Positions 28,629 through 53,711 of a DNA stretch of 64,000 nucleotides are shown one piece after another. The stretch covers positions 1 through 64,000 of the forward strand of contig JAIPDI010000017.1 in assembly GCA_021737785.1 (NCBI GenBank), in the 5' to 3' direction. A model generated the notes under the pieces. The model was not told the DNA's origin, searched no databases, and saw only the letters and a program-made list of their open reading frames with translations. Position 1 is the first letter of the stretch. Every line of letters begins with the position of its first letter. The stretch is from Deltaproteobacteria bacterium. Its GTDB lineage: Bacteria > Desulfobacterota > DSM-4660 > Desulfatiglandales > Desulfatiglandaceae. The position numbers and the translations under genes are program-made.

Positions 28629-28745
28629 TCATGTCATTATCAGGCCTGGAAATTTGAGTCTGACGACCAAAAGGAGAAGCAACAGGGAAAGGCTGATCCC
28701 TGCTGCGCTGATAATGACGATAACCTTATGCAAAAAATCGGACAT
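28629..28745 (-). CDS. Branched-chain leader peptide of the cimA-leu-ilv operon
   Basis: A 38-codon ORF between the promoter and the attenuator terminator. Residues 8-12 are V-I-V-I-I and residues 19-28 are L-S-L-L-L-L-L-L-V-V, giving 20 Ile, Val or Leu codons in all, the signature of leader peptides such as ivbL and leuL. Stalling on these codons should control termination through the helices described for the attenuator. The ribosome site is weak. A small membrane peptide is the alternative reading, but the position and the 1-2-3-4 complementarity favour a leader. Confidence 0.75.
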   Translation of the reverse strand: MSDFLHKVIVIISAAGISLSLLLLLLVVRLKFPGLIMT

Positions 28746-29043: not shown

Positions 29044-29073
29044 TTGACAAAATCGTTTGGGTGATTTACTAAT
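29044..29073 (+). promoter_or_regulatory. Promoter of the aro operon
   Basis: TTGACA (29044-29049), an 18-base spacer and ACTAAT (29068-29073, four of six consensus). It diverges from the cimA promoter; the two -35 boxes are 226 bases apart in AT-rich DNA. Confidence 0.55.
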
Positions 29074-29111
29074 TCACCACTCCATGCAGTTTGAAAGGAT
29101 CAGCGACAAAA

Positions 29112-29189
29112 ATGATTTTCAGTTATCGGTCATGGCAGAGCCTCTATTCTTATTTTTACTTTTGGGGAAGAGGTATGCCCATGTGCTGA
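29112..29189 (+). CDS. Aromatic leader peptide upstream of aroK
   Basis: A 25-codon ORF with nine aromatic codons: Phe3, Tyr5, Trp8, then Tyr12 and the cluster Y-F-Y-F-W at 14-18. All three aromatic amino acids are represented, fitting control of the common pathway. AAAGGA lies about 12 bases upstream. The stop codon is 21 bases before an intrinsic terminator. The density of Phe/Tyr/Trp codons and the alternative helices make a leader peptide the best explanation. Confidence 0.78.
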   Translation: MIFSYRSWQSLYSYFYFWGRGMPMC

Positions 29190-29249
29190 TAAGCTGATTT
29201 CTCAAGTTTCAAGGCCGTGGGTAAGCAAATTGCCCACGGCCTTTTTTTT
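29122..29249 (+). promoter_or_regulatory. Transcription attenuator, aro operon (aroK leader)
   Basis: Segment 1 (TTATC 29123-29127 and CATGGCA 29131-29137) pairs with segment 2 (GATAA 29188-29192 and TGCCCATG 29176-29183, one bulge). TGCCCATG can instead pair with segment 3 CGTGGGTA (29216-29223) over eight positions including two G-U. Segments 3 and 4 form the terminator. Confidence 0.7.
29211..29249 (+). terminator. Attenuator terminator upstream of aroK
   Basis: A 14-bp stem (29211-29224 with 29230-29243, one G-U, loop of five) followed by eight T (29242-29249). It ends about 20 bases before the aroK ATG, so it must be read through for expression. Confidence 0.9.
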
Positions 29250-29270
29250 GCTCAGGTGCAAACAGATATT

Positions 29271-29816
29271 ATGAACATTGTCTTGATCGGTTACCGATGC
29301 AGCGGTAAGACGCGTGTGGGCAGGATATTGGCCCGGGATCTAAAAAGGCATTTCTTGGATACGGACCATCTCATTGAGGTAAAGACATGTATGCCTATCG
29401 ATTCCTATGTAACTCAATACGGATGGAACGATTTCAGGAATGTGGAAAGGACGGTCATTAACGAGAGCGCCTCAAGCGACAATGTGGTCATTGCCACAGG
29501 CGGAGGCGCGGTGATGAACCATATGAACGTCCAGAAGCTGAGAAGAAATGGGTGGGTGGTGTGGCTTGACGCAGGGGCGGCGGCCATCAGGGAGAGGATG
29601 GCCCGGGCACAGCAGCTGGGACACATTCGGCCCCCGCTCTCAGAGAACGATCCTCTGGAAGAAGTGGATATAATGCTCCGTGAACGGAGAGCTGCCTATG
29701 AACAGGCCAGCGACTGGACGCTCCGTACCGACACCCGATCGCCTCAGGAGGTGGAACGGGCGATTATGAGGGCTCTCCCGCATGAACTTAGGGGCAACCC
29801 CGTGAGGACCGCTTAA
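29271..29816 (+). CDS. aroK: Shikimate kinase
   Basis: A 181-residue enzyme that phosphorylates shikimate at O3. The P-loop G-Y-R-C-S-G-K-T is at residues 7-14, the shikimate-binding acidic region is D-T-D-H, then F-R-N-V-E, A-T-G-G-G and the lid R-P-P-L. The ATG at 29271 is chosen because the P-loop lies seven residues in; an upstream ATG in frame falls inside the terminator stem. The ribosome site (CAGGTG) is poor. It is the first structural gene of the aro operon and ends one base before aroC. Confidence 0.92.
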   Translation: MNIVLIGYRCSGKTRVGRILARDLKRHFLDTDHLIEVKTCMPIDSYVTQYGWNDFRNVERTVINESASSDNVVIATGGGAVMNHMNVQKLRRNGWVVWLDAGAAAIRERMARAQQLGHIRPPLSENDPLEEVDIMLRERRAAYEQASDWTLRTDTRSPQEVERAIMRALPHELRGNPVRTA

Positions 29817-29817
29817 G

Positions 29818-30870
29818 ATGGCAGCAAATTCATTCGGGAAGGTATTCAGGATAACGACCTTTGGAGAATCGCACGGTAAGGGAGTCGGTGCGGTAATAGA
29901 CGGCTGTCCGCCAGGCATCCCTCTCTCGGAAGATGATTTCGTCAGTGAGATGGCAAGACGAAGACCCGGTCGCACCCCTGTGGATACGCCCCGATCCGAA
30001 CCGGACAGGGTGGAAATCTTCTCGGGTGTCTTTGAGGGGGTTACCGTCGGGACGCCGATTGCCCTTTTTATCCGCAATCAGGACGTAAAGAGCGCGCCTT
30101 ATGAGATTCTTCGCAGACTGTTCAGGCCGGGCCACGCGGATTATACCTATTTTAAAAAATACGGTCATTTTGACTTCAGGGGCGGGGGGAGGTCTTCTGC
30201 ACGCGAGACCGCCGCAAGGGTTGCCGCCGGCGTCATCGCCCAAAAAATTCTTGCGCCGGTAGAGGTACGAATTGCTGCTTACACCCTGGAGATGGGGGGC
30301 ATCCGGGCAGAGCATATCGATCTCGATGCTGTCCATAAAAACCCTTTTTACTGTCCTGACGTGACTGTCGTAGACAAAATAGGAGAAGTACTTTCAAGGG
30401 CAAGGGAGGCTGGCGATTCCATAGGCGGTATTGTGGAGCTTCGAATCACCGGATGTCCTGCGGGATTGGGCGAGCCGGTATTTGATAAGCTGAGTGCGGA
30501 TCTTGCCAAAGGGGTGATGTCCGTGGGCGCTGTAAAGGGGGTAGAAATCGGGGCAGGCTTCGGCGCGGCCAGGCTGAAGGGGTCTCAAAACAATGACCCG
30601 ATAACGCCGACGGGTTTTGTGACGAATCATGCAGGCGGAATACTGGGGGGTATTTCAAATGGAGACGACATTGTCCTTCGCGCCGCAATCAAGCCCATTC
30701 CCTCCATTATGATGGCGCAGGAGACCATTGACAGGGAAGGCCGTCCTGCCCGGTTGAAACTGGAGGGGCGATTCGATACCTCTGCCGTTCCCCGCATAGT
30801 GCCGGTGTTAAAGGCGATGGCGGCCATTGTGCTGGTTGATCACTATCTGAGGTCGAAGTCCTTATGGTAA
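29818..30870 (+). CDS. aroC: Chorismate synthase
   Basis: A 350-residue FMN-dependent enzyme converting EPSP to chorismate, the branch-point of aromatic synthesis. Family signatures: G-E-S-H-G (residues 16-20), R-R-R-P-G-R, R-P-G-H-A-D, R-S-S-A-R-E-T and N-H-A-G-G-I-L-G-G-I-S-N-G. It begins one base after the aroK stop. Its own stop is 23 bases before the aroF leader peptide. Confidence 0.96.
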   Translation: MAANSFGKVFRITTFGESHGKGVGAVIDGCPPGIPLSEDDFVSEMARRRPGRTPVDTPRSEPDRVEIFSGVFEGVTVGTPIALFIRNQDVKSAPYEILRRLFRPGHADYTYFKKYGHFDFRGGGRSSARETAARVAAGVIAQKILAPVEVRIAAYTLEMGGIRAEHIDLDAVHKNPFYCPDVTVVDKIGEVLSRAREAGDSIGGIVELRITGCPAGLGEPVFDKLSADLAKGVMSVGAVKGVEIGAGFGAARLKGSQNNDPITPTGFVTNHAGGILGGISNGDDIVLRAAIKPIPSIMMAQETIDREGRPARLKLEGRFDTSAVPRIVPVLKAMAAIVLVDHYLRSKSLW

Positions 30871-30893
30871 CCGACAGGGTAACAGGAGACAGG

Positions 30894-30962
30894 ATGTCGA
30901 AAAGAGACTGGCATAAGCTCTATTATTATTTTTTCTGGTGCACCGGTCCGCCCTTGGTCTAA
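30894..30962 (+). CDS. Aromatic leader peptide upstream of aroF
   Basis: A 22-codon ORF with Trp6 and the uninterrupted run Y-Y-Y-F-F-W at residues 10-15. A strong ribosome site (CAGGAG, 30883-30888) lies five bases before ATG. It starts 24 bases after the aroC stop and ends 21 bases before a terminator stem. The codon run, good ribosome site and terminator mark it as an attenuation leader for DAHP synthase expression. Confidence 0.8.
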   Translation: MSKRDWHKLYYYFFWCTGPPLV

Positions 30963-30983
30963 TGGAGTTTGTGCAAAAAAGAG

Positions 30984-31016
30984 ACCGTGGGCTGGCAGAT
31001 CGACCACGGTTTTTTT
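30984..31016 (+). terminator. Attenuator terminator before aroF
   Basis: ACCGTGG (30984-30990) pairs with CCACGGT (31004-31010), followed by seven T (31010-31016). It lies between aroC and aroF within the operon, so it acts as a gate rather than an operon end. Confidence 0.8.
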
Positions 31017-31030
31017 GTGCCCTTCATCAT

Positions 31031-31122: not shown

Positions 31123-31977
31123 ATGAACGCGCTTAGACTTGCCTCGCTGAACGGAGATCACTTGGTTCGGTCGGTCATATCGGCCGGGAATGTCCGATTC
31201 GGCGAGGATTTTGTGGTGATTGCAGGCCCTTGCAGTGTGGAGAGCGAGGAACAGACCATCAAGACCGCACAAGAGGTGAAGGCGGCGGGCGCCAATATGC
31301 TCAGGGGTGGTGCATTCAAGCCGAGGACATCGCCATACGATTTCCAGGGGCTCGGCCTTCAGGGCCTCAAGATCCTCGAAAAGGCCAAACACGCCACAGG
31401 GCTGCCGATTGTCACCGAGGTCACCGACCCGCGGGATGTGTCATGGGTGTCCGAATATGCGGATGTCCTACAGATCGGCACGCGAAACATGCAGAATTTT
31501 TCGCTCCTCAAAGAGGTTGGAAAACTCGACAAGCCTGTCCTCCTGAAAAGGGGGATGTATTCAACCCTCAAAGAATGGTTGAATTGTGCCGAGTATATCC
31601 TTGCAGCCGGAAACCCGAGTGTTATCCTTTGTGAACGGGGGATAAGGACATTTGAGACGTACACCCGAAATACCCTGGATCTCAGCATCGTCCCCTCCGT
31701 GAAGGAGACCTCCCACCTCCCCATTATTGTGGATCCCTCCCACGGAACCGGCCGGTTAAGCATTATCGAATCGATGAGTCTCGCTGCCATGGCCGCCGGG
31801 GCCGACGGCATTATGGTTGAGGTGCACTGCAGGCCGGGTGAGGCCATGTGCGACAAAGATCAGGCCATGTCGCCGGATATGTTCGGGGGACTGATGAAGA
31901 AATTGACCGTATTAGGGTCCTGCATGAACAAACTGAATGGAAAGTCACCGCATCGACTTGGAGCAGGCGAACCATGA
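31123..31977 (+). CDS. aroF: 3-deoxy-7-phosphoheptulonate (DAHP) synthase, type I-beta
   Basis: A 284-residue enzyme condensing PEP and erythrose-4-phosphate, the first step of the pathway. Seen: [30 protein letters not shown] and D-P-S-H-G-T-G. It lacks the extra N-terminal segment of E. coli AroG/F/H, and no regulatory ACT or chorismate mutase domain is fused. With no visible allosteric domain, the attenuator upstream may be its main control. AAGGAG (31107-31112) precedes the ATG. Its stop overlaps the aroB start (ATGA). Confidence 0.95.
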
Positions 31978-33017
31978 AAGTCATCCGGGTAGACGGCCGC
32001 AGAGGTACCTCCGCCATCCTGATGGGAGAGTCGATCAGATCCATCGGTAGCTATGCGCCGTTGGAAAAGACGGTCATTATCACGGACGTGAATATCATGC
32101 GTCATTATCAAAAAGACATCCCCCCCTGTCACCTGATAGAGATCCAGAGCGGCGAAAAGGCAAAATCATTGGAGACGGTCAGAGAGATATGCCTGAAGCT
32201 CATGAAGATCGGAGCGGACCGGTCATCCTTTATTGTAGGAGTGGGTGGGGGAGTTGTTTCCGACATTACAGGCTTTGTCGCCTCCATATACATGCGGGGC
32301 GTCCCATTCGGATTCGTTTCCACCACCCTCCTGTCCCAGGTGGACGCCGGCATCGGCGGGAAAAACGGCGTCAACCTCGGCGGCTACAAGAACATGCTCG
32401 GGGTCTTTAATCAGCCGCAATTCGTTATCTGCGACCTGAATCTTCTGAAGACCCTCCCTCGAAGGGAACTCCTCTCGGGCTTCGCCGAGATCGTAAAACA
32501 TGCTGTTATCGGGGACCCTGAACTGTTCTCATATCTTGAGACCAATTATGAAAGGGGAGTCTCCCTGGACCCGGAGGTGATAGAGAAACTCGTCTGTGAT
32601 TCTGTGGCCGTAAAATCAGCCATTGTAAACAGGGATGAAGAAGAGGGGGGCGAGCGGCGGAAGCTCAATTTCGGACACACATTCGGCCACGCCATTGAAA
32701 AGACGACAGGCATCTCCCACGGTGAGGCGGTCGGCATCGGTATGGCCATCGCTTCAAGATTGTCCCACAAAAGGGGATATTTGACCCTTGAAACGGCGGA
32801 ACGAATAGAGGCACTCATTAGGAAACTCGGGCTTCCAATCCGCTCTCACTGTGCACCCGGGGAGCTTCTTGACGCCATAAGAAAGGATAAAAAACGAAAT
32901 GGGAGCAGCATCCGTTTTGTGCTCCTCAAGGCGATGGGCCACGCGGTGGTGGAAGAGATGCCGATCCATGAATTGGGAGACACAATATGCGGCGGCGCGT
33001 CGCCGATGGCGTTATGA
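31974..33017 (+). CDS. aroB: 3-dehydroquinate synthase
   Basis: A 347-residue NAD- and metal-dependent enzyme converting DAHP to 3-dehydroquinate. Seen: [41 protein letters not shown] and [10 protein letters not shown]. The ATG at 31974 overlaps the aroF stop by four bases, which implies translational coupling. Confidence 0.96.
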
Positions 33018-33042
33018 TATTTGCCGGCGTGAATCGATTCGA

Positions 33043-33114
33043 ATGCAACTAATATTTCTGTTCTTTGATGATGAGTATGGGAGGATGGGCAGGAGCGGAT
33101 CGATCCGTACGTGA
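33043..33114 (+). CDS. Possible Phe-containing leader peptide before pheA
   Basis: A 23-codon ORF starting M-Q-L-I-F-L-F-F, with three Phe and one Tyr near its start. It lies 304 bases upstream of pheA. Unlike the two aromatic leaders above it has no ribosome site and no terminator with a T-run after it, so it may be chance. Confidence 0.2.
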   Translation: MQLIFLFFDDEYGRMGRSGSIRT

Positions 33115-33187
33115 ATACCTTATTTCCCGGTCTTCTGTCGTGAAAGACAAGGAAATATGGCCATCCTTCCTTTGCACGCTTAGCCTG

Positions 33188-33267
33188 CCGTCATTCCGGC
33201 ACGTTCCCGGCCGGAATCCAGAAATACGGCGGACTGGATTCCGGCTAAGGGCATGCCGGAATGACGG
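33188..33267. repeat. Palindromic MITE-like intergenic element
   Basis: Arms 33188-33221 and 33234-33267 are inverted repeats: the outer 13 and inner 12 bases match exactly (CCGTCATTCCGGC and GCCGGAATCCAG), with the middle diverged. The CGTCATTCC...GGAATCCAG pattern is typical of small mobile palindromes spread by a transposase acting in trans. Confidence 0.7.
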
Positions 33268-33417
33268 GACAGCACCAGCCGTCTTGGTTGCGATTATCCG
33301 CTTTAGATATTGTCCTATGATGCGATATGGGGCGGGATTTGTGAATACATACCCGCCTGCAGGCACAGCGCCTGCGAAAAACGATTATGTTCAAAAAGAT
33401 GTTTAACGAGGTGAATC

Positions 33418-34473
33418 ATGAATCTGAAAGAGATCAGGAAAAAGATCGACAGCATTGATGGGCAGATCCTGCAGCTTTTAAACAGCAGGATGGAACAGGT
33501 CCTGATAGCGAAAAAGTTCAAGACCGAGGTTGAGGACGTCAAGAGAGAAAAGGAGATCCTGGATAGAATACGAAATCGCCACTCAGGGCTCATTCACGCG
33601 GGATTTGTAGAAAAAATCTTTGACGGCATCATTCACGAAAGCAAGAGACTCCAGCGCGATCATTACGATCTCATTGCGTTTCAGGGAGAACATGGGGCTT
33701 ACAGTGAAGAGGCGTCCATCCTCTGGAACAGCCGCATGGTCCCCTTTCCATGCAATACGTTCGCGGATGTCTTCGAAGGGGTTCAATCCGGACTCTACGA
33801 CTATGGCATCGTTCCCGTGGAAAACACACTGGGCGGTTCCGTGGACCAGGTCAATCAACTCCTCATCCGTGTCGATCTCCATGTGGTCGGGGCCATTGAA
33901 CTCCCCGTACGCCATTGTCTCCTTGCACTCCCTGAAACGGACCACAGAGAGATCCGGAGCGTCTTTTCCCATCCCCAGGCCCTTTCCCAATGCCGTCAAT
34001 TCCTTGCACGGAATAAACTCGAGCCGATGCCTTATTCAGATACTGCCGGCGCCGCAAAAATGCTCGCAGAAGCACGGCCCAAGCGATCTGCAGCTATTGC
34101 GAGCCGGCTCTCCGCCCAATTGTATGACCTGGAGCTTATAAAGGAAGGCGTAGAGGACATGGAGAGGAATATGACTCGATTTCTTGTCCTGGCCAGGGAA
34201 AAGGCCGTTGGAAAGGGGGACAAATGCTCTGTTGTTTTTTCCACGGCGCACAAGGCGGGTACGCTCTTTAATGTGCTCCAGGTATTTGCGGAGAAGACAA
34301 TCAACCTCACACGGATAGAGTCGATTCCCAATGAGCCCGGTGACTATGCCTTTTTCCTCGATTTCGAGGGGTCGGACCAGGACCGGCCCGTCATGGAAGC
34401 ACTTAAAGAGGTCGAAAAGATGACGACCCGGTTCCGGCTGATGGGATGCTACACAGAGAGGAGGGTCCGATGA
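33418..34473 (+). CDS. pheA: Bifunctional chorismate mutase/prephenate dehydratase
   Basis: A 351-residue P-protein. Residues 1-88 form an AroQ chorismate mutase (L-K-E-I-R-K-K-I-D-S-I-D-G-Q-I-L-Q-L-L); about 92-265 form prephenate dehydratase (F-Q-G-E-H-G-A-Y-S-E, V-P-V-E-N-T-L-G-G-S-V, D-T-A-G-A-A); about 275-350 form an ACT domain (A-G-T-L-F-N-V-L, then E-S-I-P where E-S-R-P is usual), which binds Phe for feedback. Its stop overlaps the tyrA ATG. Confidence 0.95.
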   Translation: MNLKEIRKKIDSIDGQILQLLNSRMEQVLIAKKFKTEVEDVKREKEILDRIRNRHSGLIHAGFVEKIFDGIIHESKRLQRDHYDLIAFQGEHGAYSEEASILWNSRMVPFPCNTFADVFEGVQSGLYDYGIVPVENTLGGSVDQVNQLLIRVDLHVVGAIELPVRHCLLALPETDHREIRSVFSHPQALSQCRQFLARNKLEPMPYSDTAGAAKMLAEARPKRSAAIASRLSAQLYDLELIKEGVEDMERNMTRFLVLAREKAVGKGDKCSVVFSTAHKAGTLFNVLQVFAEKTINLTRIESIPNEPGDYAFFLDFEGSDQDRPVMEALKEVEKMTTRFRLMGCYTERRVR

Positions 34474-35243
34474 AGATACTCATACTGGGTGCCGGTCATA
34501 TGGGTGCGTGGCTGGTGGAAGAGCTCTGCCTCGATCACGAAATGGCTGTTTACGACCTGGACCGAAGAAAGCTCAAATACTTCTTCAACGTTACAAGGAT
34601 TCTTGAACCCTCCGAGGCAAAGGGGTTCGACCCCGAGATCCTCATTAACGCAGTGAGCATCGCCAATATCCGTGAGGCATTTGAAGATTTTCTTCCCCAC
34701 CTGTCCGAGGAATGCATCCTTTCGGACATCGCCTCGGTAAAGACCGGAATACACGCGCTGTATAGGAGCCTGGGAAGGAGATTCGTCTCCACCCATCCCA
34801 TGTTCGGTCCTACCTTTGCCAATATCAGGGACCTCCGAAATGAAAATGCCATCATCATCAAGGAGTCCGACGAGGAGGGAAAGGCCTTTTTCAGGAATCT
34901 CTATGAAGGGATTCGTCTCAATGTCTACGAGTACACCTTTGACGAACATGATCAGACAATCGCCTATTCCCTCTCCATCCCCTTTGCCTCAAGCATGATG
35001 TTTGCAGCCACCATGAAACAACAGGAGGCCCCCGGGACCACTTTTAGAAAACATCTCGATATTGCAAGAGGACTCTTTTCTGAGGATGATCACCTTCTTT
35101 CCGAGATCATGTTCAATCCCCACACGGTCAGGCAGATCGAGGCCATCAGTTCCAGCCTCACCTATCTGACCCACATTATCAGGGGAAGGGATTATGAAGA
35201 GATGCAGAAGTTTCTCAACCGGCTCCGGCAGAATATCCAGTAG
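34470..35243 (+). CDS. tyrA: Prephenate dehydrogenase
   Basis: A 257-residue NAD(P)-binding enzyme for tyrosine synthesis; whether prephenate or arogenate is the substrate cannot be told. Rossmann motif G-A-G-H-M-G-A-W (residues 7-14), S-T-H-P-M-F-G-P catalytic region and H-D-Q-T-I-A-Y-S-L-S-I-P-F-A helix. It has no mutase or ACT domain and is shorter than E. coli TyrA. The ATG overlaps the pheA stop (ATGA), favouring coupled synthesis. Confidence 0.92.
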   Translation: MKILILGAGHMGAWLVEELCLDHEMAVYDLDRRKLKYFFNVTRILEPSEAKGFDPEILINAVSIANIREAFEDFLPHLSEECILSDIASVKTGIHALYRSLGRRFVSTHPMFGPTFANIRDLRNENAIIIKESDEEGKAFFRNLYEGIRLNVYEYTFDEHDQTIAYSLSIPFASSMMFAATMKQQEAPGTTFRKHLDIARGLFSEDDHLLSEIMFNPHTVRQIEAISSSLTYLTHIIRGRDYEEMQKFLNRLRQNIQ

Positions 35244-35300
35244 AAACGCGACCAATATGAGGCGCAAGGCGCCAGGGGATCATCCAGCAGCGAGGAACAT

Positions 35301-36140
35301 ATGGAAAACGCTCCTGCCACAAGGGTGGATCAGTACACCGAGCTTTATGGTGTGATAGGAAACCCGGTCAGGCATTCCCTCAGCCCGGCGCTTCACAATG
35401 CCGCTTTTTCCGCGATAGGTCTCAATGCGGTCTACCTCGCCTTTGAACCCGAAGATATTGGGGCATGTGCACGGGGAATACAGGCGCTCGGCATCAGAGG
35501 GGTAAGTGTTACGACCCCCTTCAAGTCATCGGTGATCCCATATCTCAGTGAAATGGATCCCCTTGCAAAAAAGATCGGTGCGGTCAACACCATCGTGAAT
35601 ACAACCAACGGCCTGATGGGATATAATACCGACGCTCTCGGGGCCTTAAAAGCGCTGCAAGAAGAGATGGATCTTTTTGGAAAGCGCTGCATCCTCGTGG
35701 GAGCAGGGGGTGCGGCACGCGCCATCGGGTTCACTCTCAAAGAAAACGGGGCCACGCTATCGGTGGTCAACCGGTCCCGCCATCGCGGAGAAGGGCTTGC
35801 CCGCTCATTAGGATGCGAATTCATCCCTTTGGGGGATATTGCAGCGGCCAGTGGCGATCTCCTGATTCAGACCACGCCCGTCGGAATGTGGCCCCATGTG
35901 GATCAGTGCCCGGTCCCCGAGCGGATCTTGAAACAGGGAATGGTGGTCATGGACATCGTTTATCACCCCTCTGAGACCCGGCTCCTGAGAATGGCCAGGG
36001 CAAGGGGCTGCATCACCATCAGCGGCACCCGGATGTTGATTCATCAAGGGGCCGAACAATTCAGGCTGTGGACAGGGATTGAACCGCCGCTGTCGATTAT
36101 GAATATGGCGATAAAGGAGGCCCTTCCGGGACAGAAATGA
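35301..36140 (+). CDS. aroE: Shikimate dehydrogenase
   Basis: A 279-residue NADP-dependent enzyme reducing 3-dehydroshikimate. Seen: N-P-V-R-H-S-L-S-P-A-L-H-N-A-A-F (substrate loop), T-T-P-F-K, G-A-V-N-T-I, N-T-D and the nucleotide motif G-A-G-G-A-A-R-A. It is not fused to dehydroquinate dehydratase, and no aroD/aroQ gene occurs in the operon. Its stop overlaps the aroA start by four bases. Confidence 0.95.
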   Translation: MENAPATRVDQYTELYGVIGNPVRHSLSPALHNAAFSAIGLNAVYLAFEPEDIGACARGIQALGIRGVSVTTPFKSSVIPYLSEMDPLAKKIGAVNTIVNTTNGLMGYNTDALGALKALQEEMDLFGKRCILVGAGGAARAIGFTLKENGATLSVVNRSRHRGEGLARSLGCEFIPLGDIAAASGDLLIQTTPVGMWPHVDQCPVPERILKQGMVVMDIVYHPSETRLLRMARARGCITISGTRMLIHQGAEQFRLWTGIEPPLSIMNMAIKEALPGQK

Positions 36141-37417
36141 CGTACATCGACCCCCCATCCAGATTAAACGCGGTGGTTCGAATACCCGGCTCCAAGAGCG
36201 TTACCCACAGGGCCGTCATAGCCGCCAGCCTGGCAAACGGGAAGAGTGTGCTCAACCATTTCCTGGAATGCGAAGACACCCTCTATACCATCAACGCCTT
36301 GCGCAAGCTGGGCGTAATGATCGCCATAGACAGGGATAGCCTGATTGTGGAGGGGCGAGGCAGATCGATCGGCACAGGTCCTTTTAGAGGAAAGCTCTAT
36401 CTGGGCAATTCCGGAACCTCCTTTCGGCTCCTTCTGTCGGTGGTGGCCCTGTGCAGGGGTGAGTTTTTGATGACCGGCACAGAGAGGATGAAGCAGCGGC
36501 CGATCGGTCCTCTGGTTGCGGCCCTCAACAGTTTAGGGGTTAACGCCTCCTGCATTGAACAGGAGGGGTGTCCTCCGGTGCGCATCCGGGCCGGCGGCAT
36601 CCGGGGCGGAAGGGTTTCCGTATCAGGAAATCAGAGCAGCCAGTTTCTCTCGTCCCTCCTCCTGTCAGCCCCCTATGCAGACGCTGATATCGATGTGGAG
36701 GTCACAGGACGACTGGTCTCAAGCCCATACGTGGACATGACCCTCCAGGTAATGGATCAGTTCGGGATCCGCACCCATCGGGATCATTATGGATGGTTCC
36801 AAGTCTCTTCAGGTCAGGGCTATAAAGCCCGGGAATTGACCATCCCGGGGGATGCCTCTTCCGCATCCTATTTCTGGGCCGGGGCAGCGGTCACCGGCGG
36901 GAAAATCGTCACCAGTAATATCCATCCGTATACGACCCGGCAGGGCGATATCAGGTTTCTGGAAATCTTGGAGAGGATGGGGTGTATCATCGAAAAGGCA
37001 TCCGATTCTGTGACCGTTCACGGCGGGAATCTTTCAGGGATAGACGTGGATATGAGTGATCTTCCGGACATGGTCCCAACCCTGGCGGCAGTGGCGCTCT
37101 TTGCCAGGGGAAGGACGGCCATTCGAAACGTTGCCCACCTCAGGCACAAGGAGAGCGACCGGCTGAATGCCCTGGCACTCGAATGGGGCCGTATCGGGGG
37201 CCGTGTGAGAGAACTTCCGGATGGTCTCATTATCGACGGAGGCGCGCCCCTGACAGGGACTCTGACAGATCCTCACAACGATCATCGTCTGGCCATGGCT
37301 CTGTCAGTAGTGGGTTTACGGGTTCCACACCTCGACCTTCAGGATAAGGCCTGCGTGGAGAAGTCGTTCCCGGCCTTCTGGAGGCTGTGGAACCCGCTTC
37401 AATGGAACAAGGATTAA
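36137..37417 (+). CDS. aroA: 3-phosphoshikimate 1-carboxyvinyltransferase (EPSP synthase)
   Basis: A 426-residue enzyme joining PEP to shikimate-3-phosphate. Seen: P-G-S-K-S-V-T-H-R-A (residues 16-25), L-G-N-S-G-T-S-F-R-L, Q-S-S-Q-F-L-S-S-L-L, R-H-K-E-S-D-R-L and D-H-R-L-A-M-A. It is the last gene of the operon, overlapping aroE by four bases. No clear terminator follows. Confidence 0.96.
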   Translation: MTYIDPPSRLNAVVRIPGSKSVTHRAVIAASLANGKSVLNHFLECEDTLYTINALRKLGVMIAIDRDSLIVEGRGRSIGTGPFRGKLYLGNSGTSFRLLLSVVALCRGEFLMTGTERMKQRPIGPLVAALNSLGVNASCIEQEGCPPVRIRAGGIRGGRVSVSGNQSSQFLSSLLLSAPYADADIDVEVTGRLVSSPYVDMTLQVMDQFGIRTHRDHYGWFQVSSGQGYKARELTIPGDASSASYFWAGAAVTGGKIVTSNIHPYTTRQGDIRFLEILERMGCIIEKASDSVTVHGGNLSGIDVDMSDLPDMVPTLAAVALFARGRTAIRNVAHLRHKESDRLNALALEWGRIGGRVRELPDGLIIDGGAPLTGTLTDPHNDHRLAMALSVVGLRVPHLDLQDKACVEKSFPAFWRLWNPLQWNKD

Positions 37418-53377: not shown

Positions 53378-53611
53378 CGGTGAGACCCTTGGTCGTGCTA
53401 GACGGGGAGTTAGCGGTGCCCTGTGACCCGAAATCCGCTCATGCGGGGTTGAAAATCCTCCAGGAGAACTCTGATACCACCTGCTCCTGTGTCGCATTCG
53501 GCGTTGACATGGACCTCACGTAACAGGCGCTTGCGAACCCCGTCAGGTCCGGAAGGAAGCAGCGGTAAGTGAGAATGCCTGTGTCGTGATGACCTCTATG
53601 TTATTTCACCG
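53378..53611 (+). ncRNA. ffs: Signal recognition particle RNA (large type)
   Basis: Domain IV is clear: GTCAGGTCCGGAAGGAAGCA (53548-53567) and CAGCGGTAAG, the M-domain binding hairpin. Upstream, GGTCGTGCTAGACGGGGAGT and GCGGTGCCCTGTG resemble the Alu-domain end of large bacterial SRP RNAs, and the termini CGGTGA (53378-53383) and TCACCG (53606-53611) pair. The size near 234 bases therefore suggests the large form rather than the 114-base 4.5S RNA. Ends are approximate. It lies just downstream of the HU/IHF gene. Confidence 0.85.
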
Positions 53612-53711
53612 TGCGGCACGGACGGATGGGTCATAGTTTGAATGAGGATGCACGGCCAAGGACTCTAAATCAGTGCATAAAGAGATTCCCCTCTGATGGG
53701 TCTGCTTCCCC

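Follow-up and report, generated by a model that had tools for sequence, protein, structure and literature searches.

Attenuation by a leader peptide is a textbook mechanism of transcriptional control, and a single leader can read more than one amino acid from the same pathway, as in the ilvGMEDA (Ile/Val/Leu) and thrABC (Thr/Ile) operons of E. coli. The element described here, located ahead of aroK in a 64,000-nucleotide stretch of Desulfobacterota DNA (the window), differs from these two in the amino acids concerned and in its number of gates, each of them having one. With the E. coli trpL and pheL leaders (Rfam Trp_leader RF00513 and the Phe leader, respectively) it shares an ORF of regulatory codons, the 1:2, 2:3 and 3:4 helices, a stop codon by segment 2 and a U-tract terminator. 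Unlike trpL and pheL, which are specific for one aromatic amino acid each, it mixes all three, stands before aroK and the common pathway, has no Rfam match and is accompanied by a second copy inside the operon.

In Corynebacterium glutamicum, an aromatic leader peptide (AroR, Phe-Tyr-Phe) precedes the DAHP synthase operon at aroF and answers Phe and not Tyr, so that codon content is no guarantee of response (Neshat et al. 2014, as described in PMC11802643). AroR differs in its phylum (Actinobacteria), in having one attenuator, in preceding aroF rather than aroK, and in that no Trp codons are mentioned in PMC11802643. The uORFC-13-1 motif before aroF in Acholeplasma likewise combines a predicted Phe-coding uORF with a terminator ahead of a common-pathway gene, in another phylum, with another motif and with at least one Phe codon only (PMC8632094). 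Tandem attenuators, with two short ORFs on one operon, are known from Salmonella mgtCBR, where both are located in one long leader (PMC3641672), whereas the gates analyzed here are two genes apart. A survey of delta-proteobacterial regulation (PMC545781) mentions neither leader peptides nor aromatic amino acids. The mechanism is thus known, and the apparently new aspects, which were not found described in the literature searched or in Rfam (with an earlier report being possible for each), are the triple specificity (a leader for Phe, Tyr and Trp ahead of aroK), an amino-acid operon with two leader-peptide gates in series, and a Desulfobacterota-wide set of such leaders.

The full explanation proposed here for the locus, ribosome-mediated attenuation acting through two gates in series on the aro operon, is quite likely the correct one. 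The plus-strand gene order is aroK, aroC, aroF, aroB, pheA, tyrA, aroE, aroA, located as follows:

29271..29816, plus strand, aroK, shikimate kinase family (NCBIfam matches and operon context)
29818..30870, plus strand, aroC, chorismate synthase (NCBIfam match)
31123..37417, plus strand, aroF (DAHP synthase), aroB, pheA, tyrA, aroE and aroA, behind both gates (NCBIfam matches)

The AroK matches to shikimate kinase models of NCBIfam are below equivalog cut-offs, and the name is used because the operon context supports this identity; tyrA is a weaker match. The region upstream of aroK displays the anatomy of a candidate attenuator:

29044..29073, plus strand, putative promoter, TTGACA (29044-29049) and a weak -10 ACTAAT (29068-29073) with a spacer of 18 (sequence)
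29093..29099, plus strand, Shine-Dalgarno-like GAAAGGA of the leader ORF, 12 nt 5' of its ATG (sequence)
29112..29189, plus strand, leader peptide 1, MIFSYRSWQSLYSYFYFWGRGMPMC (sequence, conservation, frame test)
29123..29137, plus strand, segment 1, within the leader ORF, partner of segment 2 (fold, own-species pairing)
29175..29195, plus strand, segment 2, over the ORF end and stop codon, partner of segment 1 or 3 (fold, covariation, own-species pairing)
29211..29249, plus strand, intrinsic terminator, segments 3 and 4 followed by the U tract (terminator call, helix conservation)

A consensus scan made no promoter call at 29044..29073; almost every orthologous leader has the TTGACA at the corresponding position. 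The leader ORF (ATG at 29112 to TGA at 29189) contains nine aromatic residues in 25 codons, including an uninterrupted Y-F-Y-F-W run at codons 14-18, exactly as the preliminary description had reported, and the terminator it placed downstream is indeed followed by aroK, starting with ATG at 29271. Its description of a 14-bp terminator with eight T needs a minor correction: both counts are real, and the structure should be read as either 14 bp with six T or 12 bp with eight T, because two of the eight T (29242-29249) sit inside the 14-bp stem. The probability of finding nine or more aromatic codons in 25 is 2.9e-5 (binomial, against a background of 7.0% F+Y+W in 20 window proteins), and a detector of aromatic-rich ORFs followed by a terminator, applied to both strands of the window, returned this locus as the sole place.

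Conservation of the element was assessed by an AroK search in 99 relatives, 42 loci of the order being counted at E<=1e-30 (full-length). The element is directly upstream of aroK in 39 of these 42 loci, one of them (G028) by a marginal model match, and both of its parts are strictly present in 38. In G021 and G035, neither ORF nor terminator is seen upstream of aroK, which appears to be operon-internal there. A typical leader of the relatives reads QSWQ-FYFYFY-GRGLPMD*, followed by AAGCCGTGGGCA...GCCCACGGCTT-T(n), with TTGACA ahead. A covariance model built from 25 aroK leaders (R1) detects the element in 58 of the order's 85 genomes and in 93 of 395 genomes of a phylum sample (E<=0.01, the weakest of which may be chance matches). 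Dismissal of the divergent weak R1 matches as noise was considered and rejected, most of them being WWW leaders of trpE or a branched-chain leader.

Loss of the ORF with retention of the terminator in close relatives, which the preliminary description had named as evidence against attenuation, is observed in one genus (g6; G007 = L276, G028 = L277), where a terminator before aroK is kept and the aromatic leader ORF is lost; this accounts for two of the 42 loci. Together with the very high stability of terminator 1, this genus speaks for a plain, unregulated read-through terminator (or a source of an sRNA) with an untranslated ORF. We regard this as very improbable, since the aromatic enrichment is specific for one reading frame (157 of 325 codons in frame vs. 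54 and 58 in the other frames), a conserved 2:3 helix would have no role, and the modeled switch point is aligned with the aromatic run (see below). The middle of the ORF keeps its aromatic character, with F and Y interchanging between relatives, and the outer words (QSWQ and GRGLPMD) are largely read-outs of segments 1 and 2. Variation of the peptide ends with RNA pairing and retention of nothing more than aromatic character in the middle also argue against a functional small protein. Grouped with other RNA routes (T-box, riboswitch or protein-bound antiterminator), this explanation is the least probable of those weighed: Rfam, with Trp_leader RF00513, T-box and riboswitches included, gave no leader match in the window and none at gathering score in the relatives.

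The RNA of leader 1 folds with a z-score of -4.7 (none of 200 shuffles was equally stable), and both alternative helices anticipated in the preliminary description, 1:2 and 2:3, exist, the former between 29123-29137 and approximately 29175-29195 and the latter between 29175-29183 and 29215-29223. Covariation across homologous aroK leaders, one of the checks that it had suggested, revealed that the set of three competing helices is conserved and co-varies, 3:4 by compensatory changes, 1:2 by own-species pairing and 2:3 by both. Helix 2:3 is paired in 92.9% of cells (vs. 32–48% when slid) with compensatory changes present, and helix 3:4 in 97.8% (vs. 28–55% when slid) with 15 compensatory cells. 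In the NaphS2 lineage, a GCCC to GTCC change in segment 2 is linked with GGGC to GGAC in segment 3. Pairing of segments within their own species is stronger than between permuted species for 1:2 (-16.8 vs. -12.8 kcal/mol, sd 0.58) as well as for 2:3 (-18.3 vs. -16.6, sd 0.37), with p<=5e-5 in both cases, these p-values still including shared ancestry.

In addition to anatomy, conservation and covariation, we have computed a switch point by a footprint model, in which a 31-nt ribosome footprint is moved along one codon at a time, hiding the covered part of the RNA as it stands before segment 4 has been transcribed. Across 25 leaders, helix 2:3 can form with the ribosome stalled at 169 of the 184 aromatic codons, and in none of the 25 does any antiterminator form when the ribosome sits at the stop codon. 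The last permissive codon and the last aromatic codon differ by a median of 0 (range from -4 to +1). In the model, leader 1 of the window is permissive up to W18 and no longer at codon 19 (codon 16 is the switch in a variant that uses another 5' end and threshold), and its gate is closed without a ribosome; approximately 10 of the 25 leaders, the one of the window not among them, readily form 2:3 without any ribosome. E. coli trpL, used as a positive control, is open mainly with the ribosome at codons G9-R12; with a ribosome at the stop codon, or with none, it is closed. Equilibrium folding was ruled out as a model of the decision: in full-length RNA, the terminator wins whatever the ribosome position, in E. 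coli trpL as well as here. As the terminator is favored in the finished RNA of both systems, the decision has to be kinetic.

These results are consistent with the following mechanism, in which leader translation, ribosome stalling, a choice made kinetically and the identity of the relevant tRNAs are inferred. A ribosome would follow RNA polymerase, translating the 25-codon ORF during transcription of the leader. With Phe-, Tyr- and Trp-tRNA charged, it would reach the stop codon inside segment 2, allowing segment 3 to pair with 4 and ending transcription before aroK. When aromatic tRNA is short, the ribosome would stall on the Y/F/W run, covering segment 1 and freeing segment 2, which would then pair with 3, so that the terminator fails to form and the operon is read. 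A conserved ORF with its frame and position, co-varying 2:3 and 3:4 helices, own-species pairing and the footprint model with its trpL control all point to the attenuator mechanism originally suggested for this locus, and ribosome-mediated transcription attenuation by leader 1 is highly probable. A response to Phe/Tyr is very likely as well, and the leader very probably restricts enzyme production to conditions of Phe/Tyr/Trp shortage.

A second attenuator (30894-31017, MSKRDWHKLYYYFFWCTGPPLV), absent from the preliminary description, is located inside the operon ahead of aroF:

30884..30888, plus strand, Shine-Dalgarno AGGAG of leader 2 (sequence)
30894..30962, plus strand, leader peptide 2, MSKRDWHKLYYYFFWCTGPPLV, with 7 aromatic residues of 22 (R1 match, sequence)
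30978..31017, plus strand, terminator of attenuator 2, ACCGTGG...CCACGGT with a U tract (sequence, fold, R1)

The R1 match covers 30895-31018 (E 2e-6), and the aromatic content of leader 2 has a binomial P of 5.5e-4. The footprint model places its switch at the last W; this element folds less well (z -1.7), and its antiterminator forms freely without a ribosome. The start codon of leader 2 follows the aroC stop at a distance of only 23 nt, hence gate 2 most likely acts on read-through transcripts of gate 1. Expression of aroF-aroB-pheA-tyrA-aroE-aroA would, therefore, require a polymerase that has passed both gates. The pair of elements is present in at least 18 genomes, the second one 1.75–3.0 kb downstream of the first, and G222, outside the order, carries it too. 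Some of these genomes have aroF behind gate 2; others have ADTH synthase (TIGR01949) there, with a pheA homologue next to it downstream. The gate thus stays in place although the first-step enzyme differs. Overall, the second gate is probably functional. Were this so, gates in series would make the response of the committed step steeper than that of aroK-aroC.

The assertion of the preliminary description that all three aromatics are sensed can be assessed by comparing leader content with downstream genes (W counts being based on ORF readings of R1 matches, with ORFs picked by script). A W is present in the leader in 40 of 42 cases where aroK is first, in 16 of 17 readable second-gate leaders (which carry F, Y and W) and in 7 of 9 leaders of aroF alone. 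The corresponding counts are 5 of 8 for ADTH synthase, 2 of 9 for aminotransferases, 3 of 12 for MBL-fold hydrolases, 1 of 7 for iorA, acyl-CoA ligases, ABC binding proteins and type-I DAHP synthase combined, and 1 of 5 where aroC is first. This last one is probably a misread ORF, the real aroC-first leaders having FYFYFF without W.

This absence of W from aroC-first leaders is what would be expected if Phe and/or Tyr alone were sensed, with the Trp codons serving 1:2 pairing (UGG) or occurring by chance. Codon 8 (UGG) indeed sits in segment 1, inside the 1:2 helix, and a part of W conservation near it can stem from this pairing; the response of AroR to Phe and not to Tyr (PMC11802643) also fits. 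Against it, in 15 of the 42 aroK leaders W appears only past the start of the F/Y run, beyond segment 1, and it is these leaders that lack the first W. In aroK leaders, W occurs on both sides of the F/Y run in 9, only before it in 16, only after it in 15 and on neither side in 2, a compensating pattern with Fisher p=0.0012, which overstates the evidence because the genomes compared are related and a script chose the ORFs. Moreover, W is rare before genes of the Phe/Tyr type (6 of 28 leaders), and W18 of the window leader is the last permissive codon in the model. Sensing limited to Phe and/or Tyr is, thus, rather unlikely.

The codon-content pattern favors the reading that all three aromatics are sensed, a claim with comparative support: W in 40 of 42 aroK leaders, its compensating position and a WWW-only trpE leader speak for it, and the aroC-first leaders without W speak against it. 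A contribution of Trp to the leader 1 response is, on balance, somewhat probable. The trpE leader mentioned (MNHTMDTDTRHISAMDLRNWWWRSFNREVRPSALR, with WWW and a terminator; locus L224, about 2255-2147, minus strand, G000:C29) appears to be a Trp-only attenuator in the same genome as the aro operon. In many relatives (L005, L009, L010, L025, L069 and others), a WWW leader, mostly beside trpE, is divergent from the aroK leader, so that two attenuators of different specificity would share one intergenic region.

Content thus appears to follow function, with W alone for trp, mostly F/Y for other genes and a mixture of the three for most common-pathway genes. More broadly, we lean slightly toward a view in which aromatic metabolism of Desulfobacterota is controlled by a set of leader attenuators whose codon content encodes the branch controlled (F+Y+W for the common pathway; WWW for trpE; F/Y for aminotransferases, MBL hydrolases, ABC transporters and, in one family, iorA) and in which the aro operon has two successive gates, gate 2 being on the first committed enzyme, DAHP or ADTH synthase. 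If true, a single leader would integrate three amino acids for a branched pathway, and codon mixing would do the work for which E. coli uses several DAHP synthases and repressors. The codon-content rule would also allow physiological roles to be predicted for unassigned genes (e.g., iorA behind a Tyr/Phe leader), and Trp-versus-Phe/Tyr sensing by one leader becomes directly testable.

Several additional leaders were noted. Aromatic-rich leaders with a terminator precede iorA (indolepyruvate ferredoxin oxidoreductase alpha) in family f38 (L135 / L274, L255, L262, L259), suggesting a biosynthetic aryl-acid salvage role there. A wide distribution of iorA leaders was considered and rejected, as, among 50 iorA upstream regions, such leaders were seen in just three genomes, all from one family, with one more detected by the model. 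Phe/Tyr leaders are located before a gene of an MBL-fold hydrolase (L060, L064, L067, L091, L093, L095, L105, L131), with ORFs of 324–659 aa that have no known role in aromatic metabolism. F/Y-rich leaders are found before a PLP-dependent aminotransferase (L104, L106, L110, L111, L114, L115, L116, L142), with two elements in a row at L110 (aminotransferase NF005305). Tandem aromatic attenuators, 240 bp apart, precede ADTH synthase at L128 (388-514 and 628-751) and L077 (742-866 and 983-1107).

Within the window, the minus strand at 28629-28745 encodes a leader ORF (MSDFLHKVIVIISAAGISLSLLLLLLVVRLKFPGLIMT, 19 of 38 residues I/L/V) with a complementary segment and a terminator at 28611-28576, preceding the divergent genes of citramalate synthase, leuA, leuC, leuD and ilv. 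It is a predicted branched-chain attenuator placed back to back with the aromatic one, an arrangement also seen at L018. Finally, the plus strand at 53393-53655 carries a Bacterial large signal recognition particle RNA (Rfam RF01854, 135.5 bits).
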